Origin: Halosolutus halophilus | GTDB taxonomy: Archaea > Halobacteriota > Halobacteria > Halobacteriales > Natrialbaceae | Length of the DNA: 64,000 bases | Direction of reading: 5' to 3' | Assembly (NCBI RefSeq): GCF_022869805.1 | Contig: NZ_CP094974.1 | Span: forward strand, 3,410,001-3,474,000 | Shown here: positions 14,422 to 31,262 of the stretch, piece after piece | Layout of the letters: each line of letters starts with the position of its first letter | How positions within the stretch are numbered: position 1 is the stretch's first letter | Notes under the pieces: model-generated | Database searches by the model: none | What the model saw: the letters and a program-made list of their open reading frames with translations, nothing else | What the model was told of the DNA's origin: nothing | Position numbers and translations under genes: made by a program

Positions 14422-15651
14422 TCAGTTTTGGAGTTCGACGGCGGCTTGGTTCAGCCTCGCCGCGATCCGGGTCGCAGCAGTCCGGAGGTGATCGCGGGCG
14501 GCACCGCCGTCGGTTCGGAGCGCGATCGGAGGTGCCCTGTCGGCCCCCGTCCGCTCCTCGTGAGTGCGGGGCAACTGGAGGCGACCGACGAGCGGGACGT
14601 CGATGCCGGGCGGACGCTCCGGATCACCGTCGCTGTCTTCCGTTCCGACGCCCGAGTCGAGTGGAATCCGCCCCAGAATCGGGACGTCGAACTGGTCGGC
14701 CAGGTCGTCGGCACCGCCGGTCCCGAAGATGTCGTGAACCCCTTCACAGTCCGGACACTCGAACCCGGCCATGTTCTCGACGATACCAAGCACTGGCGTG
14801 TCGTAGCGCGCGAACCCGACCAGTCCGCGAGCGGCGTCGTCGACCGCGACTTCCTGGGGAGTGGTCACGATGACGGTCCCGGCGACGGGGATGTGCTGCA
14901 CCAGCGAGAGGTGTACGTCTCCCGTTCCCGGGGGCAAGTCGACGATCAGGTAATCCAGTTCACCCCACTGCACGTCGCCGACCAGTTGCTTGACGAACTC
15001 GTCGACGAGCGGGCCGCGCCAGATAACCGGGTCGTCCTCGCCGGCGACGAACCCCATACTCATCGTCCGGACGCCGTAGGTATCTCGAGGGACCATCTGG
15101 TCGTCGGTCGTCGCGTCGGGTTGTCGCTCGTCGAGGCCGAGGAGCGTCGGCGCGTTCGGGCCGTACACGTCGGCGTCGAGCAGGCCGACGGCCGCGCCCG
15201 TGTCCGCCAGCGCGACCGCGAGGTTCGCCGCGACGGTACTCTTGCCGACGCCGCCCTTGCCCGACGCGACGGCGACGACGTTCTTCACGTCGGGGAGCGT
15301 GTCGATGCGCTCTCCCGGATCGGCGGCGCTGGCCCGGAAGCCGACTTCGACCGCCTCGACGCGCTCGACGGACTCGGCGGCCGCCGCCACGCCCGCGGCG
15401 AGGTGCTCGCGGAGCGTCTCGCTCGGCACGGGGAGCGATACCTCGACCGACGCCACGCCGTCGCGCACGACGACGTCGCCGACGCCATCGATCGACGCGA
15501 GGTCGGCGTGGAGTTCGTCCTGCCCCACGTCCGCCGAGGCGATGGCCTCCCGGACGGCCGCGGCGGCATCGTCCCGCCGATCGGCGTGGGACGGCGCTGT
15601 GGCCCCACCGTCGACCCTCTCCGATTCGGACGCGTCGTCGGAGTCACCCAT
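14422..15651 (-). CDS. Mrp/NBP35-family ATPase, Fe-S cluster carrier
   Basis: This 409-residue protein has an N-terminal MIP18/DUF59-like domain (about 30-110), then a ParA-type ATPase with the deviant Walker A SGKGGVGKSTVAAN at 130-143, LLDADVYGPNAP, and DYLIVDLPPGTGDVHL. A VENMAGFECPDCEG segment supplies the CxxC used by Mrp/ApbC proteins to bind a bridging [4Fe-4S] cluster. Known relatives transfer Fe-S clusters to target enzymes. It starts 6 bases after the stop of the molybdopterin oxidoreductase gene and is the last gene of that operon. It probably loads or maintains the five or more clusters of the complex (inference). The C-terminal 60 residues are disordered-looking. Confidence 0.9.
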   Translation of the reverse strand: MGDSDDASESERVDGGATAPSHADRRDDAAAAVREAIASADVGQDELHADLASIDGVGDVVVRDGVASVEVSLPVPSETLREHLAAGVAAAAESVERVEAVEVGFRASAADPGERIDTLPDVKNVVAVASGKGGVGKSTVAANLAVALADTGAAVGLLDADVYGPNAPTLLGLDERQPDATTDDQMVPRDTYGVRTMSMGFVAGEDDPVIWRGPLVDEFVKQLVGDVQWGELDYLIVDLPPGTGDVHLSLVQHIPVAGTVIVTTPQEVAVDDAARGLVGFARYDTPVLGIVENMAGFECPDCEGVHDIFGTGGADDLADQFDVPILGRIPLDSGVGTEDSDGDPERPPGIDVPLVGRLQLPRTHEERTGADRAPPIALRTDGGAARDHLRTAATRIAARLNQAAVELQN

Positions 15652-15657
15652 CGTCAG

Positions 15658-18600
15658 TCAGTCCCCGTCCCGCGGGCCGAACTCGTCCGGGTCCCATCGC
15701 TCCTCCCGGCCGACCGGGCCGTCCATGTACCAGGCGTCGTCCTCGTCGGGGTCGGTCGGCGGGGCGATCGGTCGCTTGAGCCACTTCGGCCGGCGCTTGC
15801 CGTCCGGCCCACCGGCCGGTCGGGTCTCCTCGACCCACTCGCGGTAGATTTCCATGGACCGATCGGTATCGACGTAGACGTCGCCGTAGTAGTCGTCCGG
15901 CTTCGCCGGCCGGACCCGGACCTTCTGGTGCCAGCAGTGCATCCCCGAGATGGGGTCGGGATGGGGCGCGTGCGTGAGGTTCTGCGGGACGCCCCCGTCG
16001 GTCCACCAGACCCGGGCGGAGTCGGGGTCGTCGCTGTCGAAGGGACCGATGCCGGACTGCTGGCGCATCCCCCAGCTGCTGTCATCGTCTTTCAGGTCGA
16101 CCGTGACCTTCCCGTAGGGGTCGCCGCCCTCGTCGAAGTCCCCTTCGGCCTCGCCGTCGCCGTCGCGGTCGATCTTCCACTGGCCCATGTGGTGGCTCAT
16201 CGCGGCGATCCCGGGTTTGATGGACTCGGTGACCCACACCTCGTTGACGTAGTAGCCGATGTCGGTCTCCACGCGCACGAGGTCGCCCGTCTCGACCCCC
16301 AGTCGCTCGGCGTCTTTGCTGTGGAGCCAGACGGGGTTGTTGTGCGAGATTTCCTCTAGCCACTTGGAGTTCGACGATCGGGAGTGGATCTGGGTCGGTA
16401 ACCGGAAGGTGGGCACCAGCACCATCTCGCCGTCGTCGTAGTCGATGTTCTCGGGGTGGACGTGGCTCTTCAGGTAGTGGGGAATGGTGTACTCCTCGTC
16501 GTCCCAGCCCCACTCCGCGAGCGTCTTCGAGTAGAACTGCTGTTTGCCGGTCGGGGACGGGAACCCGCGTTTCGGTTCGCCGTCCACCATCACGCCTAGC
16601 ACCTGGGTGTCGACGTCCGAGAGTCCGCCGTGGGGAATCGTGTCGTACCCGCCGGGGTAGTCAGAGCCCTCGTCGATTTCGGCCGACTCCGCCGCCCCGT
16701 CGGGAATCGAGACGTCGGCGTCCTCGTCCAGTACACGGTGGATGGTCCCGTACTCGTCGACGAACACGTCGTCTTCCTCGAGGAGTGCCGGATCGAGCGG
16801 CTCCTCGTGGAGTTCGTACTCGTTCCGGCTGGCCTCGAACGCCCCGTGGTGTTTCATGTACTCCAGGGGCTCCATACCGGCCTCCTCGGCGGCCTCGACG
16901 AGGTTCTCCTCGTGCTCGAAGATGTAGCGGTAGTACTCGTCGATGGTCATCTGGGGCGGTTCGTCCGTGGCCCCGTCAGTGCCCGTCGCCTCCCGATCGG
17001 CCGCGCCGTCGTCCCGCTGTTCGGTCGTGCCGCCGTTCGCCGCGGACGTCTCCCGATCGCGGTAGGGGCTCTCGAAGTACTCCCGGATTCCCAGTTCGCC
17101 GTCCTCGTCGATGCGCCAGGAGAGGTCCATCCAGAACTCGTCTTCCTCCCAGACCTCGCCCGGATTCGCCTCGTAGGTGCGCTCGATGTCCGCGCCCTCG
17201 CGCTCGGCGTATTCCCGCTGGACGGGCTGTCGGTAGGTGACCCACGTCGCGGCGTGGGTCTCCTGGCTCTGGATGTCGTGGCGCTCGGGGCTGTGGCCCA
17301 TCGGCAGGACGTAGTCGGCGAAGTACGCCGTCTCGTTCCAGGTGGGCGTCAGCGCGACGTGCATCCCGACCTTGTCCTCGTCGCTCAGCGCCTCGATCCA
17401 GGAGAACCCGTCGGGGTAGGTGTAGACGGGGTTGAACACGCGGGTGAAGTAGACCGACAGCTTCCCGCGACCCTCCTTGAGGAAGTACGGCAGAAGCTGG
17501 CTCATCTCGTAGTGGGCGAACGGCCACTCCGGCGGCAACTGGAGTTCGTCCCAGAGCTTCTGGCGCGGCGGCTCCTTCGGCATCTCCGGCTCGAACTGGT
17601 GCCAGGCGTTGGGCGAGGTGCCGCCCTTCGTGCCGACGCTCCCGGTGAGCACGGACAGGAAGTGCAGCGTGCGACTGACCTGCCAGCCGCCCCTGTTCCC
17701 CGACGCCGCAGAGCGCCAGATGTGGCTGGCGAACCGGTCGCCGGCGAGACCGATCTTCCGGCCGACCTTCTCGATGGTGGCGGCGTCGACGCCGCTCTCC
17801 GCCTCGACGTACGCCGGCGTGAAGTCCGCGTACGTCTCCCGGAGCACGTCGAGGTACGTCTCGAACGTCCGCTCGCGTCCGTGGTGTTCCTCGTCGAGGA
17901 ACTGCCGCCAGTTCACCCAGTTGCGGAGGAACTCCTCGTCGTAAAGCCCCTCCTCGAGGATGACGTTGGCCATCGCTAGCAGAACCGCGGCCTCGCTGCC
18001 GGGCTGAGTGGGCAGCCAGTAGTCCGACATGGCGGCCGTGTTCGACAGCCGCGGATCCAGAACCGCGAGCTGGCCCCCTTCCATGACGCCCTCGATGATG
18101 CGCTGGGCGTGCGGGTTGAAGTAGTGGCCGGACTCCAGGTGGGCGGACAGCAGCAGGATAAACTCGGCGTTGGCGAAGTCCGCACTCGGCCGATCGTACT
18201 TGTGCCAGAAGGCGTAGCCCGCCCTGGCGCCCGACGAGCAGATGTTCGTGTGGGAGTTGTGGCCGTCGACCCCCCAGGCGTTGATGACCCGGTCCATGTA
18301 CCCCTCGTGGCCGGGCCGGCCGACGTGATAGGTGATCTCGTTCTCGCGGTCGTCCTCGATGGTCTCGCGCATCTCGGAGGCGATGTCATCGAGGGCGTCG
18401 TTCCAGGAGACGCGGGTCCACTCGCCGCTCCCGCGCGGCCCGTCCCGCTTGAGCGGATAGCGGATACGCTGGGGATCGTTGATCTGGTTGATAGTGGCCG
18501 GCCCCTTCGCGCAGTTGCGCCCCCGGCTTCCGGGGTGTTCGGGATTGCCCTCTATCTTGCGTATCTCGCCGGTCTCCTTGTCGATATAGGTCAGCAGACC

Positions 18601-18858
18601 GCAGCCTGCCTCGCAGTTGAAGCAGGCCGTGGGGACGACCGAGTACTCCTTCGGGAGGCCCTCGGACTCGTACTCGACCCAGTCGTGCCACTGCTCGGGG
18701 TCTGGGTAGGAGCCGAGTTCGCCCTCCGGGGCGATGCGGTCGATGCCGTCCACGCCGCGGCGCTGTCGTTGCTTCTTCGTCTCCTCGGTGCGGTTCGAGA
18801 TGACGCCGAGTCGCTCGGCGACTTTCTCTATGCGGCTCGGTTCGAATTCGTGTCCCAT
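15658..18858 (-). CDS. Molybdopterin oxidoreductase, SoeA-like (sulfite-oxidising or polysulfide/tetrathionate-type) catalytic subunit
   Basis: This 1066-residue enzyme belongs to the DMSO reductase family. The N-terminal [4Fe-4S] site is C79-x2-C82-x3-C86 with C116 in GSRGRNCAKG. The segment GHNSHTNICSSGARAG (about 199-214) holds Cys207, the likely Mo ligand. I recognise this stretch and the following LESGHYFNPHAQRIIEG from the SoeA/PSRLC3-type group. There is no Tat signal, so the enzyme is probably cytoplasmic, as in SoeABC. Residues about 600-640 form an inserted low-complexity acidic stretch. The ATG at 18858 lies 2 bases after the stop of the Fe-S/NrfD gene. TusA and DsrE genes next door point to sulfur chemistry. 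Polysulfide, tetrathionate or thiosulfate reductase activity cannot be excluded. Confidence 0.72.
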   Translation of the reverse strand: MGHEFEPSRIEKVAERLGVISNRTEETKKQRQRRGVDGIDRIAPEGELGSYPDPEQWHDWVEYESEGLPKEYSVVPTACFNCEAGCGLLTYIDKETGEIRKIEGNPEHPGSRGRNCAKGPATINQINDPQRIRYPLKRDGPRGSGEWTRVSWNDALDDIASEMRETIEDDRENEITYHVGRPGHEGYMDRVINAWGVDGHNSHTNICSSGARAGYAFWHKYDRPSADFANAEFILLLSAHLESGHYFNPHAQRIIEGVMEGGQLAVLDPRLSNTAAMSDYWLPTQPGSEAAVLLAMANVILEEGLYDEEFLRNWVNWRQFLDEEHHGRERTFETYLDVLRETYADFTPAYVEAESGVDAATIEKVGRKIGLAGDRFASHIWRSAASGNRGGWQVSRTLHFLSVLTGSVGTKGGTSPNAWHQFEPEMPKEPPRQKLWDELQLPPEWPFAHYEMSQLLPYFLKEGRGKLSVYFTRVFNPVYTYPDGFSWIEALSDEDKVGMHVALTPTWNETAYFADYVLPMGHSPERHDIQSQETHAATWVTYRQPVQREYAEREGADIERTYEANPGEVWEEDEFWMDLSWRIDEDGELGIREYFESPYRDRETSAANGGTTEQRDDGAADREATGTDGATDEPPQMTIDEYYRYIFEHEENLVEAAEEAGMEPLEYMKHHGAFEASRNEYELHEEPLDPALLEEDDVFVDEYGTIHRVLDEDADVSIPDGAAESAEIDEGSDYPGGYDTIPHGGLSDVDTQVLGVMVDGEPKRGFPSPTGKQQFYSKTLAEWGWDDEEYTIPHYLKSHVHPENIDYDDGEMVLVPTFRLPTQIHSRSSNSKWLEEISHNNPVWLHSKDAERLGVETGDLVRVETDIGYYVNEVWVTESIKPGIAAMSHHMGQWKIDRDGDGEAEGDFDEGGDPYGKVTVDLKDDDSSWGMRQQSGIGPFDSDDPDSARVWWTDGGVPQNLTHAPHPDPISGMHCWHQKVRVRPAKPDDYYGDVYVDTDRSMEIYREWVEETRPAGGPDGKRRPKWLKRPIAPPTDPDEDDAWYMDGPVGREERWDPDEFGPRDGD

Positions 18859-18860
18859 AA

Positions 18861-20657
18861 TTAGGCGAGCGAGATGGTCTGCGGGGCGGTTATCCAGCAA
18901 TACTCGAAGGCAAACAGGCCGGCCAGCGCGAGCGCGCCGGCCACCGCCGCGAGGACGGGCCAGCCGACGGCCAGCGCGGCCAGCGGCAGCAGGATGCCGA
19001 CGACGACGCCGCCGATCCAGAACGCCGTCCGGAACCGACCGCGGGTGATGCGCGCGGCGGCTTCCTCGGCGTCCTCGGTCTGGTGAGGCGTGAAGATCTC
19101 GGAGGCGACCAGCACGGCGTGCAGGACGAGGCCGGCTCCGAGGGCAAGCGCCGACGGACCGACCATCGCCTCGAATCCCGGCACACCCGCGACGCCGAGG
19201 ACGATCAGTGTCGCGCCCCCGGCGACGATCGACTGCGCGAACATGTGCAGCGGCATCGCGGGGCTCTGCCAGAGGTCGCGTCCTTTCGACTGGCTGAACA
19301 GAAACGCCGTGTAGACCGCCGTCGCCGCGCCGAGGACGGCGGCCGCGCCCAGCGAGAGCGGGTGGACGACGGCTTCGATTCCCAGGAGTGCTCCCAGGAC
19401 GGCCAGCCCGAGGTACGCGCCGGCCGCCGAGATGATGTAGGCTCCCTTCACGAGCCAGGAGTTCCAGTTCGGCCGCAACAGCACCCAGTGAAACCGGGTC
19501 GGCTGTTCGAGGTCCAGGACGAGGAGCACGCCGGTCGCCGCCAGGAACAGACCGCTGACGAACGCGCTCGCGCCGAAGGCGGTCACGTCGGGTTCGACTA
19601 CGCCGAACAGCATGAACAGCGCCGAGAGCAGCAACGTCCCGGCCGAGATCCCCTTCGTCCAGGTGTAGGAGTACACCTCCCAGCCCCAGGACCCGTAGTG
19701 GTCTTCGCCGATGTCGTAGACCCGCGTTGCCTCCTCGTGGAGGAGTTCGTAGGCTCGCTCGGTCCGGCCTTTCGAGTCGTCGGACCCGCTCCGTCTTGCG
19801 GGCTCGGTTCCGTACCCGCCATCGGACTGGACGTCACTCGTGTTCGTCGACGACGCGGACGCGTCCTCCTTGCCGCACCCACAGGAATCACAGCCACAGT
19901 CCGTTCGCCCGCCGTCGGCGCGGGCATCCGCGTCGTCCGATCCCCCGGCATCGCCCAGCGAGACGTCGGACGCCGCGAGCGACTCGGCGGCCTTCTCGAG
20001 GTCGAAGTCGGGGACCGCTTCGCCCTCGGTCTCGACCTGGTGGGGAGCGTCGCTCCACATGTAGTGTTCCTCGCGGGCGGTCGTGCCCGGGGTGGTGCTG
20101 CCCTCGTCGCCGTCGACGTAGAACAGCTTCGGCTCCGTGCCCTTCTCGGGCTTGCGGGCCTGGACCTCCTCGCGGGAGGCGGTGCGGGCGATTTCGCTGT
20201 CGGGGTTCTCGAGATCGCCGGCGACGATCGCGTCCTCCGGGCAGACGGTGACGCAGGCCGGCTCTCGCCCCGTGTCGACCCGGTGGCTGCAGTAGTTACA
20301 CTTCGCAGCCGTCTCCGTGTTCGGGTCGATGTAGAGCGCGTCGTACGGACAGCCCTGCATGCAGGCCTTACAGCCGATGCAACGCTCCGGATCGAAGTCG
20401 ACGATGCCGTCCTCGCGTTCCCACAGTGCCGTCACGGGACAGACGTCGGTGCAGGGGGAGTCGTCGCAGTGGTTACACCGCATCACCGAGAAGTTGCGGT
20501 TCGTATTGGGGAACTCGCCTTTCTCGATGTACTTGACCCAGGTCTTGTTCACACCGATCGGGTCGTCGTGCTCGCTCTTGCAGGCGACGGTACAGGCGTG
20601 ACAGCCGATACATCTCCTGTTGTCGATGACGAAGCCGTAGTTCGTTATAGGGGCCAC
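18861..20657 (-). CDS. Fused 4Fe-4S ferredoxin and NrfD-type membrane anchor (SoeB-SoeC-like)
   Basis: This 598-residue protein joins two subunits that are usually separate. Residues 1-190 carry four [4Fe-4S] motifs: CIGCHACTVAC, CNHCDDSPCTDVCP, CIGCKACMQGCP and CNYC with CVTVCP. A linker of about 120 acidic residues contains a compact DCGCDSCGCG. From about residue 330 there are eight or so hydrophobic helices typical of NrfD/PsrC quinone-reactive anchors (WTKGISAGTLLLSALFML onward). It would pass electrons between the Mo subunit and the menaquinone pool. The start is taken as GTG at 20657, the only plausible start before the first cluster motif; a purine-rich GGAG directly abuts it, so the start is uncertain. 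The next gene begins 2 bases after its stop. Confidence 0.78.
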   Translation of the reverse strand: MAPITNYGFVIDNRRCIGCHACTVACKSEHDDPIGVNKTWVKYIEKGEFPNTNRNFSVMRCNHCDDSPCTDVCPVTALWEREDGIVDFDPERCIGCKACMQGCPYDALYIDPNTETAAKCNYCSHRVDTGREPACVTVCPEDAIVAGDLENPDSEIARTASREEVQARKPEKGTEPKLFYVDGDEGSTTPGTTAREEHYMWSDAPHQVETEGEAVPDFDLEKAAESLAASDVSLGDAGGSDDADARADGGRTDCGCDSCGCGKEDASASSTNTSDVQSDGGYGTEPARRSGSDDSKGRTERAYELLHEEATRVYDIGEDHYGSWGWEVYSYTWTKGISAGTLLLSALFMLFGVVEPDVTAFGASAFVSGLFLAATGVLLVLDLEQPTRFHWVLLRPNWNSWLVKGAYIISAAGAYLGLAVLGALLGIEAVVHPLSLGAAAVLGAATAVYTAFLFSQSKGRDLWQSPAMPLHMFAQSIVAGGATLIVLGVAGVPGFEAMVGPSALALGAGLVLHAVLVASEIFTPHQTEDAEEAAARITRGRFRTAFWIGGVVVGILLPLAALAVGWPVLAAVAGALALAGLFAFEYCWITAPQTISLA

Positions 20658-20931
20658 CTCCGTTGAGTCATGGCAACGATCAACATGCGATCGGGAGTAT
20701 ACTTAAAGCTTGTGCGAATTGTACAATATACCGAATACAGAACACTTCGTCTGGGTACGGCTCGGAACGGATGCGCGGACCGACGGCAACCGATCGAGAA
20801 CCTCCGTCAGAAACGAACATTAGAACCACGAATACCGGTATCTGTGGTTGAGACTATCACCCATTTTTCAACAATACGAATCTTTATTGTCTTGTACACG
20901 AGAGAAATATTGTGCGAGGTTGGCAAGACAC
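20658..20931. promoter_or_regulatory. AT-rich divergent control region between the Mo-enzyme operon and the tusA-dsrE operon
   Basis: On the minus strand TTTAAGTATA near 20697-20708 is a TATA candidate for the Fe-S/NrfD gene. On the plus strand AAATATT at 20905-20911 is placed about 25 bases before the tusA ATG. The region contains a perfect palindrome TTGTACAA at 20719-20726, a related TTGTACA at 20892-20898, and TTGTGCGA at 20710-20717 and 20910-20917. An 11-base word CTTGTGCGAAT (20709-20719) recurs upstream of hpt at 13130-13140. Such elements could be operators for a redox or sulfur regulator (inference). Confidence 0.5.
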
Positions 20932-21192
20932 ATGAGTACGGAACACAGAGTCACCGAAACGCTCGACGTGAAAGGACTGAACTGTCCGATGCCAGTCGTC
21001 AAGGCGAAGCAGGCGGTAGACGGCCTCGAATCGGGAGACGTCCTCGAGATCGTCGCGACGGACCCCGGGAGCGTATCCGACATCGAGGGATGGGCGAACG
21101 CGACGGGCAGCGTAAAACTCCTCGAACAGGACGAGACCGACGAGGACGGCGAGACCGTCTACCGACACTACGTCCGGAGGACAGACGCATGA
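20932..21192 (+). CDS. TusA-family sulfur carrier protein
   Basis: This 86-residue protein has the TusA fold and the active-site motif LNCPMPVVKAK with Cys18 in CPxP. It would carry persulfide sulfur between a sulfur donor and acceptors such as DsrE proteins. The ATG at 20932 gives a standard length and follows a TATA-like AAATATT at about -25. An upstream in-frame extension shows no family similarity. The stop overlaps the next start (ATGA). It is distinct from the selD-linked TusA at 10276-10536, sharing little beyond the CPxP motif. Grouped with DsrE2 and DsrE it resembles the TusA-DsrE2 sulfur-trafficking sets of sulfur-oxidising prokaryotes. Confidence 0.92.
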   Translation: MSTEHRVTETLDVKGLNCPMPVVKAKQAVDGLESGDVLEIVATDPGSVSDIEGWANATGSVKLLEQDETDEDGETVYRHYVRRTDA

Positions 21193-21761
21193 GCACGGAT
21201 TCGCCGACGGAGGACGCGACGGCGGACCCGAGCGTGGCGAAGCTGCAGGAGCAGATCGACGAACTCCGGGAGGATCTCGCCGCCGTGAAAAACGACGACG
21301 AGCAAAAACGGATGACCATCATCGCGACGAAGGGGTCGCTGGACATGGCCTACCCGCCGTTGATCCTCGCGAGCACGGCCGCTGCCTTCGGCTGGGACGT
21401 CGTCGTCTTCCACACCTTCTGGGGTCTCGACATCCTCCACGAGGAGAAATCCCAGAACCTCAAGCTGAGCGCCGTCGGGAACCCGAACATGCCGATGCCG
21501 AACGCGCTCGCCGCGCTCCCCGGCATGGACTCGATGGCCACGAAGATGATGCAGAAGAAGATCGACGAGAACGGCACCGCCACCATCGAGGAACTGATCG
21601 ACCTCTCGCTCGACAGCGGCGTCGATCTGCAGGCCTGCCAGATGACGATCGAGCTGATGGACTACGACGAAGACGACTTCTACGACGGCGTGACGACGGG
21701 CGTCGGCGCGGCCACCGCGTTGCAGCACATGGCCGAGGCGGACATCCAGTTGCTGGTGTAA
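21189..21761 (+). CDS. DsrE2-like protein (DsrE/DsrF/DrsH-like family)
   Basis: This 190-residue protein begins with a short acidic coiled coil (about 14-36), then the DsrE2 pattern KRMTIIATKGSLDMAYPPLI, a hydrophobic segment with FHTFWGLDIL, and a conserved LQACQMTIELMDYD holding Cys150. DsrE2 proteins are usually membrane-associated persulfide carriers working with TusA. The helix here (LILASTAAAFGWDVVVFHTF) is hydrophobic enough for membrane contact but may be only the protein core. It overlaps tusA by ATGA and is followed 2 bases later by a third carrier gene. Confidence 0.85.
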   Translation: MSTDSPTEDATADPSVAKLQEQIDELREDLAAVKNDDEQKRMTIIATKGSLDMAYPPLILASTAAAFGWDVVVFHTFWGLDILHEEKSQNLKLSAVGNPNMPMPNALAALPGMDSMATKMMQKKIDENGTATIEELIDLSLDSGVDLQACQMTIELMDYDEDDFYDGVTTGVGAATALQHMAEADIQLLV

Positions 21762-21763
21762 CC

Positions 21764-22159
21764 ATGGCGACCGTCGACAAAATCGGTATCATCGTGTACA
21801 GCGACGATCCGAAGAGCCTCGCCATGGCCATGAACCTCGGCCAGGTCGCCCTGGCGATGGAGACGGAGGTCGTCGTTTACTTCACGTTCGACGGCCTCTC
21901 GCACCTGCTGTCGGGCGAGAAGGATCTCGGCGACTTCGAGCGGATGGTCGAGGCGGGCGTACCCGATCCCTACGGGTTGCTCGCGGACTTCGTGGAGGCC
22001 GGGGACGACCTCGTCACGACCGTGGCCTGCACGACGACCATCGATATGCTGGGCTGGGACCGCGAGGCGATGGACGAGTCGCTGACGACCGAGTTCGCCG
22101 GCGCGGCCGCGTTCCTCGACGAAACGGCGGACGCCGCCCACGTGTTCAGCTTCGGGTAG
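21764..22159 (+). CDS. DsrE-family protein
   Basis: This 131-residue protein has the DsrE-like alpha/beta fold: IGIIVYSDDPKSLAMAMNLG at the N terminus, VVVYFTFDGLSHLLSGE, and VTTVACTTTIDMLGWDRE with a single Cys89 at the position of the carrier cysteine. It starts 2 bases after the DsrE2-like gene and closes the tusA-dsrE2-dsrE operon. Probable role: persulfide transfer linked to the divergent SoeABC-like enzyme (inference). Confidence 0.8.
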   Translation: MATVDKIGIIVYSDDPKSLAMAMNLGQVALAMETEVVVYFTFDGLSHLLSGEKDLGDFERMVEAGVPDPYGLLADFVEAGDDLVTTVACTTTIDMLGWDREAMDESLTTEFAGAAAFLDETADAAHVFSFG

Positions 22160-23882: not shown

Positions 23883-24145
23883 ACCTCAGCCTGAGACCAG
23901 GAATCGACTTCACTCTACGGACCGATCGCACGCGGACGATAGACCGGCGCGACGTGCTGCTGGTCAGTTCGTTCCAGTGACGGTCTCACTTCAGGACGGT
24001 ACCGAGCCTCGATCCGAACTAGCGTTCGCACCCGCGCTCCGTTCGAGGAAATCGCCTCCCGACTACCAGTTACGTACAAATATATTTGATGAGTAGTAGA
24101 CTATTCGTGGAGGCCTATTTCCGGTCTGCGCTCGTGTGCGTACCT

Positions 24146-25438
24146 ATGGCACGCCAACCCGTTCGGTTCACCCCGTTCTACCTCGCAGGTGCGCTGTTCC
24201 TGCTCGCCGGCCTCGTATTGGCTGTCTACCACGGTCTCGAGCAGTTCGATCTCGTTCCGCGACTCGGATGGGTTTCGTGGAGTCACATCCACTTCGTGAC
24301 GATCGGCGGCTTCACGCAGCTCCTGTTCGGGACGCTCCCCCTACTCACGGCTCGAAAGCTCGATCGACGGCTACCCTCGAAGTGGTACGACTGGCTGAGC
24401 TTCGTCGGGCTGAACGGCGGGTTCCTCCTGCTGTGGTACGGACGCGGCTGGAACCACACCTGGGCATTTGACGGCGGTCTGGTTGCGATCTGGCTACTCG
24501 TCGCCGGATTGCTGGTCGTGATGCTGCGAATGATCATGCAGAGCGGTCGCGCGTGGAACGCGACGATCGGGCTGTACCTGGCGTCGGTCTTCGTGTTCCT
24601 GTGGGGAATCACGTACGCGTACGGACTATTCGCCCACGTCTGGCAGGTTCCCGGAGGCTGGCTCGGCCTGCGCGAAGCCCACGTTCACGCCAACGCCTGG
24701 GGATTCCTCGGGCTCGCGGCCATCGGCACGCTCTACGATCTCTTCCCTCGCGTGCTCGGTACCGATCTCTACAGCGAGAAGCTACAGAACTACTCGGCGT
24801 GGTTCTTCGTCGTCGGCATCTTCCCGCTGATCACCGGCCCCTGGATCGGAATGGGTCGGACGGTCACGGCAACCGGGCTCGTCCTCTTCGCGACGGGCTT
24901 CGCACTGTACCTGTACAATCTCGTCCAGACGTACCGATCGGTGGATTCCCGATCGGGCATCGCGCTGTCGGTGCTGGCCGCCCAGTTCTGGATGCTCGGG
25001 CCGGCGGGCTTCGCCCCGTTCGTGTTGTTCGGCGTCGAGTGGGTCGACCCGGCGTACATCGAAGACGGGGCTCTCCACTTCTTTTTCGTCGGCTGGGCCC
25101 TCCCCATCGCGCTCGGCGGACTCTTGCTCTATTTCCGAAATCTCCCCGTCCTGCGGAAGGAGCGGTCCGGACTCGGGGACCGGGTCGATTCAGCCGATGC
25201 CGTTCCGGACGTGGACGTCCCGTCGGTGATCTCGACGTGGATGGTCTGGCTCTGGAACGGTGCGATCTTGCTCGTGGGCGTCGGGTTCTTCTACCAGGAT
25301 CAGTCGTGGTCGGCGTACCTCTTCGGGCCGGGATACACCGTCCTCGTCGTCCTGTGGGGCTACGAGTTGGCGCAGGTATTCCGCCTGCGCCGGTCACTCC
25401 CTGCTGACACCGAGACGACTGCTGATACTGGTCTTTGA
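24146..25438 (+). CDS. Polytopic membrane protein, NnrS/heme-copper oxidase subunit I-like
   Basis: This 430-residue protein has about 12 hydrophobic helices and several histidines near helix ends: WSHIHFVTIGGFTQLLFG, GWNHTWAF, LREAHVHANAWGFLGLAAIG followed by TLYDLFPRV, and ALHFFFVGWALP. The HVHANAWGF segment resembles those seen in NnrS and in CcoN/NorB-type subunits. The start at 24146 was chosen over an upstream ATG because family-like sequence begins there and CTATTT lies about 27 bases before it. It heads a same-strand cluster with a CuA subunit II and a subunit I that lacks the catalytic tyrosine. A role in NO response or as an extra heme-binding subunit is likely but not shown. Confidence 0.65.
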   Translation: MARQPVRFTPFYLAGALFLLAGLVLAVYHGLEQFDLVPRLGWVSWSHIHFVTIGGFTQLLFGTLPLLTARKLDRRLPSKWYDWLSFVGLNGGFLLLWYGRGWNHTWAFDGGLVAIWLLVAGLLVVMLRMIMQSGRAWNATIGLYLASVFVFLWGITYAYGLFAHVWQVPGGWLGLREAHVHANAWGFLGLAAIGTLYDLFPRVLGTDLYSEKLQNYSAWFFVVGIFPLITGPWIGMGRTVTATGLVLFATGFALYLYNLVQTYRSVDSRSGIALSVLAAQFWMLGPAGFAPFVLFGVEWVDPAYIEDGALHFFFVGWALPIALGGLLLYFRNLPVLRKERSGLGDRVDSADAVPDVDVPSVISTWMVWLWNGAILLVGVGFFYQDQSWSAYLFGPGYTVLVVLWGYELAQVFRLRRSLPADTETTADTGL

Positions 25439-25602: not shown

Positions 25603-25749
25603 ATGTCCGGAGGCGTAGAGACAGATCCGCCGCTGTTGCAGCGTCTTTACGACCGTATTTGGCTTATTGCACTGGCAGCGATCCTGTTCTGGGCACTGTC
25701 GTACGTGCTGTGGGGATACGTCGACATCTTCACCGTACCGCCGGGGTGA
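25603..25749 (+). CDS. Small single-span membrane subunit of the oxidase/NOR cluster
   Basis: This is a 48-residue peptide: MSGGVETDPPLLQRLYDRIW, then a single hydrophobic helix reading LIALAAILFWALSYVLWGYV, then DIFTVPPG. It ends 4 bases before the GTG of the CuA subunit gene. Short one-helix subunits of this kind (CbaD-like) accompany ba3-type oxidases. The codon use is normal and the spacing argues for translation. Function is inferred from position only. Confidence 0.7.
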   Translation: MSGGVETDPPLLQRLYDRIWLIALAAILFWALSYVLWGYVDIFTVPPG

Positions 25750-25753
25750 TTCC

Positions 25754-26296
25754 GTGACGTCACCACTCAAACCGCCGGACGGCAATTGGTGGAACCAGCC
25801 GATCAACAGGCGTGAGGGCATCTGGCTGGGCCTCGCGGGTACCTGGTCGGTCATCATTTTCGGCTGGATGAGCGGTTTCACCCGCTTCGGTGACCAGAAT
25901 CCGATCGGGGAGACGTACGAGGTCAGCGCCAGCGAGTTTCAGGACAAGTTCTCGGAGTACGAGGATTCCGCGGAGGAGACCGATGCCGGATTAGTACCTC
26001 CGGGCGACGACGTGTACATCGCCGGGATACGGTTCTCCTGGCAGGGGACGCCGGTCGTCCTCGAGACCGGCCGGGAGTACGACTTCCACCTCAGCTCGCT
26101 GGACGTCCAGCACGGGTTCTCGATCCGGCCAGAACACGCGCTGAGCCAGCAGATGAATTTCCAGGTGCTGCCCGGTTACGAGTGGGTTCTGCCCATGGAG
26201 TTCGACGAACCCGGGGAGTACCACATCATCTGCAACGAGTTCTGTGGCCAGGGACACAGAACGATGCACGGGCGGATCGTCGTGAGGGATTCATAG
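25754..26296 (+). CDS. Heme-copper oxidase/NO reductase subunit II with CuA site
   Basis: This 180-residue protein has one N-terminal helix (IWLGLAGTWSVIIFGWM) and a cupredoxin domain. All six CuA ligand residues are visible: His120 in VQHGFSI, then Cys160, Glu162, Cys164, His168 and Met171 in CNEFCGQGHRTM. It would accept electrons from a copper protein or cytochrome and pass them to subunit I. The start is GTG at 25754, 4 bases after the small peptide gene; no ATG is available in the right place. The stop codon directly abuts the ATG of subunit I. The single helix and short length fit the B-type (ba3-like) group. Confidence 0.92.
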   Translation: MTSPLKPPDGNWWNQPINRREGIWLGLAGTWSVIIFGWMSGFTRFGDQNPIGETYEVSASEFQDKFSEYEDSAEETDAGLVPPGDDVYIAGIRFSWQGTPVVLETGREYDFHLSSLDVQHGFSIRPEHALSQQMNFQVLPGYEWVLPMEFDEPGEYHIICNEFCGQGHRTMHGRIVVRDS

Positions 26297-28024
26297 ATGT
26301 CGACGCTCGGTCTCTTCGATAACGACTACGACGAGGACGGGTTCCGGCGCTGCTCCGTGACAGGGTTGAACGTCCATCGAACCGTCGAGAATCTGGTCAA
26401 GTTGTTCGGCCTGTCGGCGGTCGTAGCGATGGTGATCGGCGGCACCTTCGCGTTCTTCGTCGCGATGACGCGGTGGGAGGTGATCGGGTTACTCGAGGCC
26501 CAGGATTATTACGTTCACCTCACGCTTCACGCCTGGAACCTGCTGATCTTCTGGATGGTGTTCATGGAAATCGCGGTTCTGTACGTCGGCGGGCCGATGG
26601 TGCTCGGCCGTCGACTGCCACTGACCGCGCTCGCAAAGACCGGCTGGGTGACGATGGTCGTCGGGGCCGTTCTCGTCAATCTCGGGGTCTGGATGACGGC
26701 CCCGCCGGATACGGCGCCACTGTTGACGGCCTACGTGCCGCTGACGGCTCATCCGTGGTTTTACGCCGGGGCGATCCTGTTCATACTCGGCGCCATCGTT
26801 GCGGCGATACCCTTCTTCGTGACACTGTGGCGAGAAAAGCGAGGCCAGCCGTACAAGACCCTGCCGCTCATCGCCTTCGGCGCGTTCGCAACCTCGATCA
26901 TCGCCTTCGAGGCGCTGGTCGGCGGCCTCGTCACGTTCGTGGTCGCGTTCCTCTGGCGAATGGAGTTCATCGGCTGGATGGACGCCGCCTGGTATCGTCA
27001 CATGTACTGGACCATCGGCCACAGCACGCAACAGATCAACCTCGCGGCGATGGTGACTGTCTGGTACTTCCTCACACACGTCGTCGGCGGGGCCGAGGTC
27101 GTCAGCGAGAAGGTCTCGCGGACCGCGTTCATCCTCTACATCTTCTTCATCAACCTCGGGGCCGCACACCACATCCTGTCGGATCCGGCGGTTTCCACGG
27201 GGTGGCGCATCTGGAACGCCTCCTACGCGATGTACGGCGCTGCCTTCGCCAGCATGATTCACGCGTTCGCCATCCCGGCCGGCATCGAGGCGGGTCGACG
27301 CAAGCGGGGGCTGGGCGGCGGGCTGTTCGGCTGGCTCACGTCTGCACCGTGGAACAATCCGGTCTTCTCCGCGACCGTGTTCAGCATCGTCCTGTTCGGT
27401 TTCGTCGGCGGCATCACCGGCGTCGTAATGGGCCAGTTGCAGGTTAACATGACGTGGCACAACACGTTCGCGACGGTCGGTCACTTCCACGCCACCGTCG
27501 CGCTCGGAACGACGCTCGCCTTCATGGGACTCGTCTACTTCGTCGTCCGCACGATGTTTCTGCGTCGATTCGTCTTCGATCGGCTCGCGACCCTCCAGCC
27601 GTACCTCTACGCCGGCGGGATGGGTATCGCGACGCTCATGATGCTGTACGCTGGCCTCCTCTACGGCGTGCCCCGTCGAACCGCCGAGGTGGTCGAGAAC
27701 ATCCCCGGTACGGAGTTTAACCTCGCTGCGGCCGCTCCGCTGTTCGCGATCTTCGGCGTCTTCGCCGTGATCGCGATCCTCGCCGGTGCGGCGTTCGTTC
27801 TGGTGGCGGTCGCATCGATTCTCGTCGGCGAGCGCGTCGATGGAACCGGCAGCGACGCGGACATCGTACCGGACGGGGGCGCGACGGTCGACGAGGACGA
27901 TCCGGTCCACGCCTACGAGATGCGGGGGACCTTTCTCCTCTGCCTCCTCTTCCTGGCCGTATTCGTCGCGTCGTACGTGGCGAACTGGTACCTGCTCACC
28001 GAACTATGGTCGGTTGGACTGTGA
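26297..28024 (+). CDS. Heme-copper superfamily subunit I, B-type-like, lacking the active-site tyrosine (candidate NO reductase)
   Basis: This 575-residue protein has 12 or more helices. Heme and metal ligands align with ba3 oxidase: His78 in LTLHAWN (low-spin heme), His242 in WTIGHSTQQ, the pair His291-His292 in AAHHILSDP, and His396 and His398 in VGHFHATVA. In oxygen reductases of this type the helix VI motif is HxxxY, whose Tyr is cross-linked and needed for O2 chemistry. Here the same position is Gln246. Nitric oxide reductases lack this tyrosine, and non-canonical NOR families that keep a CuA subunit are known in archaea (eNOR, sNOR). So this is more likely a CuA-type NOR than an oxidase. 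The ATG follows directly on the subunit II stop. Confidence 0.85.
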   Translation: MSTLGLFDNDYDEDGFRRCSVTGLNVHRTVENLVKLFGLSAVVAMVIGGTFAFFVAMTRWEVIGLLEAQDYYVHLTLHAWNLLIFWMVFMEIAVLYVGGPMVLGRRLPLTALAKTGWVTMVVGAVLVNLGVWMTAPPDTAPLLTAYVPLTAHPWFYAGAILFILGAIVAAIPFFVTLWREKRGQPYKTLPLIAFGAFATSIIAFEALVGGLVTFVVAFLWRMEFIGWMDAAWYRHMYWTIGHSTQQINLAAMVTVWYFLTHVVGGAEVVSEKVSRTAFILYIFFINLGAAHHILSDPAVSTGWRIWNASYAMYGAAFASMIHAFAIPAGIEAGRRKRGLGGGLFGWLTSAPWNNPVFSATVFSIVLFGFVGGITGVVMGQLQVNMTWHNTFATVGHFHATVALGTTLAFMGLVYFVVRTMFLRRFVFDRLATLQPYLYAGGMGIATLMMLYAGLLYGVPRRTAEVVENIPGTEFNLAAAAPLFAIFGVFAVIAILAGAAFVLVAVASILVGERVDGTGSDADIVPDGGATVDEDDPVHAYEMRGTFLLCLLFLAVFVASYVANWYLLTELWSVGL

Positions 28025-28835: not shown

Positions 28836-31262
28836 TCACAGCAACTCACGTCGGGAATTCGTGACGACGAGGACGCTACTGGTGGCCATCGCGACGGCCG
28901 CGAAGAGCGGGTTGAGAACGCCGGCGACGGCCAGGGGAATCGCGATCGCGTTGTAGCAGAGCGCCCAGCCGACGTTCTCTCGGATGCGGCGTCGCGTCGC
29001 CGAAGCGAGTTCGAACACGGCCGGGACATCGTCCAGCGCCCCGTCGACGAGCACGACGTCCGCTGCGTCCGCAGCACGGGCCGTCCCGGCGATCGCGATC
29101 CCGACGTCGGCCGCCGCCAGCGCCGGCGCGTCGTTCGTTCCGTCGCCGACCATCGCTGTCGAACCGGTAGCTCCTACCCGACGGATCGTCGCCGCTTTCC
29201 CGTCGGGTGGAACGCCTGCGAACACTCGATCGACGGCGGGGTGGTCGCGGAACCGTGCGGCTGCCGTCTCGTCGTCACCCGTGAGGACGATCACCCCTCG
29301 ATCGTCGAACGCGTCGAGCGTCCGTCGCCAGTCGCCCCGTTCGCGGTCTCCGACGACCGCGACCGCCGCCGGTCGACTTCCTCGACCGACGACGGCGGGG
29401 ACGTCGCCGTCTTCCCTCGCGTTCTCGACGGCCGCCCGGAGGCGATCCGGGAGCGGTCCACACCGCCGCTCGACGAGTTCGTCCGTTCCGACGACGACCT
29501 CCTCGCCGGCGACATCGCCGCTCACGCCCTCTCCGGGATGGCGTTCGAAGTCGGTCACCGTTCCCGTCTCGACGTCGGCGAAACCCCGATCGCCGTCGTC
29601 ATCCTCCCCGTCCCTGCCCGTTCCACCGTCGGTCACAGCCTGTGCGTGGTCGACGATCGCGGACCCGATCGGGTGAGACGACCGCCGCTCGACGGCGGCC
29701 GCCGCAACCAGCGCGTCGGCGTCGCCGATCACCTTCCGAACGGTCATCTCGCCCGTCGTGAGGGTCCCCGTCTTGTCGAAGACTACCGTGTCGACCGTCG
29801 GTGCGTCCTCGAACAGCGATCCGTTGGTGACGACGACGCCGCGTCCGAGCGCGTCGCGGAGGCCGCCAGCGACCGCCAGCGGCGTCGCCAGTCCCATCGC
29901 GCAGGGACAGGCAGCGACCAGAACCGTCAGCCCGGCTAACAGTGCCCCTGCTATCGGTTCACCGACGGCCAGACGCCAACCGGTTACGCCCGTCCCCAAC
30001 AAGAGGACGAGCGGTACGAACACCGTCGCGAGGCGATCGGCGAATCGCTGCACTCCGGGCCGATTGCTCTGTACGGTCCAGAGCAGCGACGTGATGCGAT
30101 CGAGCGTACTTTCGGCGTCTTCGTCTACCGCGAAGACGAGCGCGTCATCGGTGACGACGCTCCCGCCGATGACGGCATCTCCCGGCCGTTTCGTACTGGG
30201 AAGCGACTCCCCCGTCAACACGGCCTCGTCGACCGCAGCGACGCCTTCCACGACGGTCCCGTCGATCGGAACGCGCTCGCCCGGTCGGACCACAACCTCG
30301 TCTTCCGGTTCGAGGTCGTCCACGTGAACCGTCTCCGTTACCCCGTCTTCGTCTCGACGCGTCGCCTCGGTGACCCGCGTCGTGATGAGATCCGACAGCA
30401 GGCCGGTCGCCCGTCGCTTTCGTTTCCCCTCGTAGTAACTGCCGGCGGTGACGATGATCACGATCGCGATCGAGACGTCGTAGTAGAGGTGGATGCTCCC
30501 GGTGATGAGCGCGACCGTACTGTACGTGAAGGCCGACAGTATCGCCACCGAAAGGAGGAGGTCCATGTTCGGCTGCCGCGCTCGAACGCTGACGTACGCG
30601 CCCCGGAGTATCGGCCATCCGGTGTAGAAGACGACGATACTCGAGAGCGTTCCGATGACCGCCATCGGGAAATAGAGACCGAATACCGAGGTTCTATCGG
30701 CGGTGAGGATACCCGTCTCGATTCCGACGTAGCTCGGATAGAGGAAGAAGACGTACCACGGCATGACGAGCATCGCGAGAAACCCACCGACGAGCAGTCG
30801 CTGAAGCGTCTCCTCGTCGCGGTTCGGCCGATCGTCGTCGGTTCGGTCCCTGCGTTTCGCGGTGTATCCGTATCCGCTCAACACCGCCGGAATATCCGCC
30901 ACGTCGATCCGCTCGGGATCGTATCGTATGCGTGCGGTGTCAGTCGCGTAGCTCGCCTCGACGGAGTCGATCCCGTCGCGGGATTCGCCCCGAAGGGAGA
31001 GGAACGCCTCGCACGTGGTACAGTGCATTCCGCCGATCTCGAGGAAGACCTCCTCCAGTTCGTCGGCGGCCGTGACGGCTGCGTCGTCGTCGGCGACGGT
31101 ACGAGAGTACTCCCTGACCGCTGTCGTATCCACGTCTTCTATCTCGTCGACCGCTCGAGCGACCTCCAGACACCCACGACAGCAGAACGATCCCCGAACG
31201 TCGGTCGTCGTGACGGCTGGCGTCGGTGTCGGCAATCCACACAGCGTACACTCGTCGGTCAT
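28836..31262 (-). CDS. Copper-translocating P1B-type ATPase, CtpA/FixI-like
   Basis: This 808-residue ATPase begins with a Cys-rich segment (Cys5, Cys8, then CCRGC at 27-31), the N-terminal metal-binding region seen in FixI/CcoI-like pumps. An HMA domain with GGMHCTTCE (Cys81, Cys84) follows. The membrane core shows the TGES loop, the ion-binding ACPCAMGLATP (Cys452-Pro-Cys454), the phosphorylation motif DKTGTLTTGE (Asp496), SHPIGSAI and GDGTNDAPAL. CPC-type pumps of this class export Cu(I), and the CtpA/CcoI branch loads copper into heme-copper enzymes. The gene converges on the oxidase/NOR cluster with only 22 bases between, in keeping with that role (inference). Confidence 0.92.
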   Translation of the reverse strand: MTDECTLCGLPTPTPAVTTTDVRGSFCCRGCLEVARAVDEIEDVDTTAVREYSRTVADDDAAVTAADELEEVFLEIGGMHCTTCEAFLSLRGESRDGIDSVEASYATDTARIRYDPERIDVADIPAVLSGYGYTAKRRDRTDDDRPNRDEETLQRLLVGGFLAMLVMPWYVFFLYPSYVGIETGILTADRTSVFGLYFPMAVIGTLSSIVVFYTGWPILRGAYVSVRARQPNMDLLLSVAILSAFTYSTVALITGSIHLYYDVSIAIVIIVTAGSYYEGKRKRRATGLLSDLITTRVTEATRRDEDGVTETVHVDDLEPEDEVVVRPGERVPIDGTVVEGVAAVDEAVLTGESLPSTKRPGDAVIGGSVVTDDALVFAVDEDAESTLDRITSLLWTVQSNRPGVQRFADRLATVFVPLVLLLGTGVTGWRLAVGEPIAGALLAGLTVLVAACPCAMGLATPLAVAGGLRDALGRGVVVTNGSLFEDAPTVDTVVFDKTGTLTTGEMTVRKVIGDADALVAAAAVERRSSHPIGSAIVDHAQAVTDGGTGRDGEDDDGDRGFADVETGTVTDFERHPGEGVSGDVAGEEVVVGTDELVERRCGPLPDRLRAAVENAREDGDVPAVVGRGSRPAAVAVVGDRERGDWRRTLDAFDDRGVIVLTGDDETAAARFRDHPAVDRVFAGVPPDGKAATIRRVGATGSTAMVGDGTNDAPALAAADVGIAIAGTARAADAADVVLVDGALDDVPAVFELASATRRRIRENVGWALCYNAIAIPLAVAGVLNPLFAAVAMATSSVLVVTNSRRELL

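Follow-up and report, generated by a model that had tools for sequence, protein, structure and literature searches.

Organization of the eNOR locus

The window that we analysed, a stretch of 64,000 nucleotides of the Halosolutus halophilus genome (contig NZ_CP094974.1, positions 3,410,001 to 3,474,000), carries a gene for a heme-copper catalytic subunit that is preceded by the gene for a cupredoxin-type subunit II, followed by a third gene and faced by a convergent gene for a copper-type P-type ATPase (Table 1). As developed below, we assign this operon to eNOR, a family of membrane-bound NO reductases (NORs). The initial annotation had described a complete CuA site in subunit II, and we indeed located all six ligands (H149, C189, E191, C193, H197 and M200 in the numbering of the 25667-26296 frame), of which H149, C189, C193, H197 and M200 are invariant in 25/25 subunit II sequences and E191 is present in 24/25; the match of the protein to NCBIfam CoxB (46 bits) lies under the cut-off. 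While the earlier description stood at every point checked, the start of subunit II is the exception: translation probably begins at GTG 25754 and not at TTG 25667, as judged from VTSPLKPPDGNWW..., which matches MTSPIKPPDGNWW in homologues. In each of the 20 haloarchaeal loci compared, the subunit II gene directly adjoins that of subunit I.

Table 1. Features of the assigned eNOR operon and its convergent neighbour (window coordinates)
Feature	Position	Strand	Basis
Subunit II of the assigned eNOR, CuA site, probable GTG start; open frame from TTG at 25667	25754..26296	+	
CuA loop C189-N-E-F-C193-G-Q-G-H197-R-T-M200	26231..26266	+	
Subunit I of the assigned eNOR (norE-like, B-type heme-copper catalytic subunit), 575 aa	26297..28024	+	PF00115, Gln clade, AlphaFold model
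Helix VI motif H242-S-T-Q-Q246: CuB ligand His and Gln replacing the cross-linked Tyr	27020..27034	+	
Third gene of haloarchaeal eNOR operons, 241 aa	28088..28813	+	Synteny
Copper-type P-type ATPase (HMA and E1-E2 ATPase)	28836..31262	-	Pfam; convergent neighbour

The product of the third gene has about three predicted membrane helices (by eye) and a weak Ig-like outer domain. It is without a Pfam match, its family is without a noteworthy PDB match, and a bacterial Ig model touched one of five family members weakly. In a first survey of haloarchaeal eNOR loci, a member of this family followed subunit I in 20/20 cases, a few of them with a heme synthase gene in between, and a search of 84 bacterial or plasmid eNOR loci gave no match to it. 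On the strength of this synteny, the product may be an accessory subunit. The copper ATPase gene is present in 13/20 haloarchaeal eNOR regions as well as in two further loci of the window type (L192 and L193), and its product presumably supplies copper.

The other neighbours of the operon are sulfur-metabolism genes, and nirK was not found in the compared stretch around it. The 14422-22159 region encodes an Mrp/ApbC NTPase, a molybdopterin oxidoreductase, a fused FeS-NrfD protein (TtrB/DsrO-like), TusA and two DsrE-family proteins and is likely a sulfur-respiration or sulfur-oxidation cluster; we considered it as a partner of eNOR and discarded it, as synteny gave no support. The gene just upstream (24086-25438, + strand) was likewise rejected as part of the system, as no relative of it turned up in the other eNOR regions compared and its second copy lies elsewhere. 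It encodes a COX1-like membrane protein of 450 aa that matches the helix X region of PF00115 only, and its second copy (59% identical) lies at 4798538-4799770 of the same genome.

Glutamine occupies the tyrosine position of helix VI

Pfam search of the subunit I frame returned PF00115 (COX1) as the single strong domain (184 bits), and a sequence search of the PDB placed the Thermus thermophilus ba3 oxidase nearest among solved structures (E 3.5e-38). With a family profile, the Aquifex-type B oxidase and Thermus ba3 were reached at E ~1e-62, with the A-type enzymes far behind. The AlphaFold model (mean pLDDT 80.8, pTM 0.87) finds its best PDB matches in Thermus ba3 oxidase (TM 0.74-0.78) and, as a predicted structure, confirms the B-type fold. 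All six metal-ligand histidines described earlier could be located (H78, H242, H291, H292, H396 and H398), and helix VI indeed reads H-S-T-Q-Q, with coordinates, frame and residues (His242, Gln246) as first given. GHSTQQ aligns on GHPIVY of ba3, which puts Gln246 at the place of the ba3 tyrosine.

The motif GH[GST][STA]QQ[IV]N recurs in 30/30 haloarchaeal members (in the form GH[GS][ST]QQINL) and in 56/56 rows of the Gln clade defined below, a uniformity that is partly built in for the bacterial rows, because most of these were fetched by two peptide patterns of which one contains QQ; this bias does not extend to the haloarchaeal and plasmid rows, since these were found by whole-protein searches. 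Thus, Gln246 is neither chance nor a sequencing slip. The Tyr clade has Tyr at this position in 13/13 rows.

A single change separates the Gln clade from tyrosine-bearing oxidases

Searching 145 Halobacteria genomes, we found close relatives of subunit I (59-74% identity over the full length) in 28, along with a separate set of ba3-type oxidases that are about 30% identical and all carry Tyr. Relatives at 39-46% identity reside on plasmids of Thermus, Thermomicrobium and Defluviimonas, and a scan of species genomes added others from Pseudomonadota, Gemmatimonadota, Nitrospirota, Acidobacteriota, Myxococcota and further groups. In a maximum-likelihood (ML) tree of 70 proteins, from which the Rhodothermus marinus eNOR was absent, one branch (100/99, recovered in all bootstrap trees) split 56 Gln from 13 Tyr proteins, and the Gln/Tyr exchange amounts to one change. 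The Gln clade unites archaea, Thermus and many bacterial phyla, and its haloarchaeal members form one clade (24 rows, 100/99). Eight positions hold one and the same residue throughout the Gln clade and another in the Tyr clade (E91, Q245, Q246, N248, Y281, N307, Y310 and H322), and the window copy retains all eight. We also observed a GHFK motif, with Lys for the second His of GHFH, the axial ligand of the low-spin heme, in four Thermus loci (L041, L042, L047 and L048) and one of Aquificota (L098), so that a His/Lys-ligated low-spin heme is possible in these eNOR-like proteins.

With its B-type fold, CuA site and ligands intact, the window protein could also be pictured as an oxygen reductase that lacks the helix VI tyrosine and draws a radical residue from another helix, as cbb3 enzymes do, and two tyrosines that never vary among the proteins of the Gln clade (Y281 of helix VII, Y310 of helix VIII) might be put forward for this part, as the Tyr clade has F and mostly N/L/F, respectively, at these places. 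However, in three CcoN sequences the tyrosine precedes the His-His pair of helix VII by six residues; the window copy has Ile285 at that place, and its Y281 lies ten residues ahead of the pair. Moreover, the genome already encodes two A-type and two Tyr-bearing ba3 oxidases, and the exclusive co-occurrence of eNOR with NirK (see below) is unexpected for an oxidase, making this possibility very improbable. The initial annotation had named nesting within ba3 oxidases together with a tyrosine from another helix as the finding that would speak against an NO reductase; instead, we found the 100/99 split and no cbb3-style rescue tyrosine at the CcoN position.

According to the published classification, a conserved Gln in place of the cross-linked Tyr of oxygen reductases identifies the subunit I of eNOR (PMC8756737, section 2.7.1 and Table A4), and a cluster of eNOR genes has been reported in Halobacteria beyond Natronomonas (PMC8756737). 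The window operon has Gln at the Tyr position, the six histidines, a separate upstream cupredoxin subunit II and a place among the Gln proteins. We conclude from these sequence features that the 26297-28024 product is very probably an eNOR of the haloarchaeal kind, which would make it a membrane-bound NO reductase with B-type heme-copper oxidases as its ancestors. This supports the initial proposal of a CuA-type NO reductase from a non-canonical family and gives that family a name, eNOR, with its Gln signature (PMC8756737); the new active site offered as the other option is unnecessary, the Gln site having been published before (PMC8756737).

Haloarchaeal eNOR genes are strictly paired with NirK

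To correlate eNOR with nitrite reduction we compared gene content across the 145 Halobacteria genomes and found NirK in 28/28 with eNOR versus 49/117 without (Fisher 2e-9), and within the window organism's own family in 16/16 with versus 5/21 without (Fisher 1.6e-6), values that overstate independence because the genomes are related. A family-wide search added 23 eNOR genomes, all 23 with NirK (51/51 in total). Together with the nirK cluster, qNOR and NosZ of the window organism's own genome (see below), these counts make a strong case for an NO linkage of haloarchaeal eNOR and are an indirect sign of NO reduction. At the threshold used, qNOR was absent from 8/28 and 10/23 of these genomes, leaving eNOR as the only recognised NO reductase in 18/51, contrary to the view that NorZ (qNOR) is the only NOR class in haloarchaea (PMC8400030, PMC8301774). 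As these 18 genomes combine NirK and eNOR with no detectable qNOR, N2O production from brines has probably been misassigned in qNOR-only surveys, and automated annotation still labels eNOR proteins as cytochrome oxidase subunit I. The strict pairing with NirK yields a prediction that is easily testable in haloarchaea with one eNOR and no qNOR. Neither qNOR nor eNOR was found at the thresholds used in 12 NirK-positive Halobacteria genomes (G008, G019, G050, G062, G070, G089, G110, G116, G119, G125, G136 and G140), which may contain another NO reductase or give off NO.

In bacteria, NirS is encoded within ~6 kb of eNOR in 16/84 loci, with NnrS, DUF542 and hemerythrin genes nearby on occasion, and on the Thermus thermophilus NAR1 plasmid eNOR lies beside genes for a nitrite reductase, Rrf2 and DUF542. 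One organism leans the other way: Thermus brockianus YIM 77927, in which we detected an eNOR operon with NirS and NirK next to it (L048) and which has no cNOR, has been described as lacking nor genes, and once its nitrate had been consumed neither nitrite nor N2O nor N2 was detected, NO being inferred as the product (PMC9270275). This phenotype counts to some degree against NO reduction by eNOR, and if NO is truly the product, the eNOR of this strain would have to be inactive or unexpressed. The strain's enzyme has Lys at the low-spin heme ligand position that corresponds to His398 of the window copy and for this reason may not represent the haloarchaeal enzymes. As possible physiological support we also considered the NO-grown 'Ca. 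Nitricoxidireducens bremensis' (L116), which we set aside as its NO reduction is attributed to cNOR (PMC10390337).

The window copy belongs to a second type of haloarchaeal eNOR

The same genome harbours another eNOR subunit I gene (1573937-1575661, 74% identical to the window copy), which lies between two nirK genes. Its cluster comprises a NarO/Bat-like HTH regulator, a fused CtaA/CtaB heme synthase, NirK, a cupredoxin, SCO-like and CcdA-like proteins, subunits II and I, the third gene, a copper P-type ATPase and, further on, the second NirK, as well as small DUF2249-like proteins (by reading of the sequence). A gene pair for an NrfD membrane protein and an FeS protein (1562277-1565401; L135:278-3402) is found beside this cluster, its NrfD part resembling DsrP weakly. 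In all, the genome encodes two NirK (passing the TIGR02376 cut-off), two eNOR, a qNOR with HMWVE (4421712-4424060) and a TAT-type NosZ (passing the TIGR04244 cut-off), and the presence of NirK, qNOR and NosZ equips the organism for the conversion of nitrite to N2.

The window copy forms a separate subclade (100/99) with one copy of genome G169 (81-82% identity) and the sole copy of genome G184 (77%). The loci of this type are compact, consisting of the genes for subunits II and I, the third gene and the convergent copper ATPase, with no nirK in the compared stretch. Such features, in a host that also has a nirK-linked eNOR and a qNOR, speak for a divergent paralogue whose main job is not denitrification and which instead detoxifies NO, or takes part in signalling, in oxic or micro-oxic settings, or turns over an additional substrate. 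The clade-specific active-site residues are all unchanged, however, and all three genomes with the subclade carry NirK, and we regard such a departure from denitrification as possible, though rather unlikely.

The branch of the window copy (0.3) is longer than those of the nirK-linked copies, which, along with the missing nirK neighbour, could suggest a decaying, non-functional duplicate. Yet the three reading frames are intact, every ligand and clade-specific residue is retained, and the arrangement with the copper pump is kept in L192 and L193. Moreover, the differences from the closest relative, that of G169 (0.157/0.070/0.336 by codon position), are two to five times more frequent at third than at first and second positions. 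With divergence thus concentrated at third positions, the window copy follows a purifying pattern and appears to be maintained, and decay is improbable in the extreme.

Taking the window copy as a maintained eNOR, we can sketch a scheme of two haloarchaeal isoforms with a lineage-specific third subunit, in which the nirK-linked form would be the only NOR of many denitrifiers and the window type would do something different, such as proton-coupled removal of NO under air or on sulfur-derived electrons; we put this forward as speculation that has the odds well against it. While the Gln oddity is real, it is mostly explained already by the eNOR family. What the locus adds, at a modest level of interest, is that eNOR is strictly paired with NirK, that some denitrifiers are free of qNOR, and that there are a second isoform and a third gene, the less known parts being the subclade unlinked to nirK and the third membrane protein of haloarchaeal eNORs.

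Proposed mechanism

In the mechanism that we envisage, electrons from a blue copper protein or a cytochrome would enter at CuA of subunit II and pass through the low-spin heme of subunit I to the heme-CuB centre, where two NO would be reduced to N2O and water, NO being the presumed substrate of the window copy. Gln246 replaces the redox-active Tyr, which NO reduction should not need, because N-O bonds would be cut without the O-O cleavage that demands an extra electron. The conserved polar residues E91, Q245, Q246, N248, Y281, N307, Y310 and H322, a set confined to the Gln clade, probably form the altered active site and a proton route. Coupling to protons, as well as the parts played by the third gene and the copper pump, would be putative elements of the scheme. 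As a second isoform beside the nirK-linked copy, the window copy may be used for respiration or for removing NO when conditions differ.

Comparison with known systems

The eNOR family is said to go back to Hemp and Gennis (2008), and the Rhodothermus marinus enzyme has reportedly been shown to reduce NO. PMC11388526 counts eNOR among the biochemically characterised NORs, citing Murali et al. 2024.

The haloarchaeal qNOR (NorZ) likewise reduces NO and is present in the same genome, but it is a single fused subunit with Glu (HMWVE) and without a CuA subunit. Glu at this position of cNOR and qNOR, as the initial annotation had it, agrees with PMC8756737 Table A4, and in place of the Glu, the FeB site and the missing CuA of these enzymes, the window operon has Gln246 and a complete CuA site. 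bNOR (the CuA NOR of Bacillus azotoformans) and sNOR are, like the window enzyme, CuA-bearing NO reductases related to B-type oxidases, and gNOR is a putative NO reductase of B-type relationship with a cupredoxin subunit II; they differ in having Asn (sNOR and CuANor) or Asp (gNOR) where Gln246 stands here (PMC8756737 Table A4). With the Thermus thermophilus ba3 oxidase the window enzyme has in common the fold, the six histidines, CuA, Y257 (Y248 of ba3) and a conserved Glu in subunit II. It differs in the exchange of Tyr237 for Gln246, with Ile285 at the helix VII place of the cbb3 tyrosine, and in E91, Q245, N248, N307, Y310 and H322, which differ clade-wide.

Compared with the eNOR family at large, the haloarchaeal operons contain a conserved third membrane protein, in place of which the bacterial loci examined often have genes for heme o synthase, SCO and cytochrome b, and the window copy stands in its own subclade apart from nirK. 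It shares with the family the Gln for Tyr, the CuA-bearing subunit II, the B-type ancestry and the occurrence in Halobacteria.
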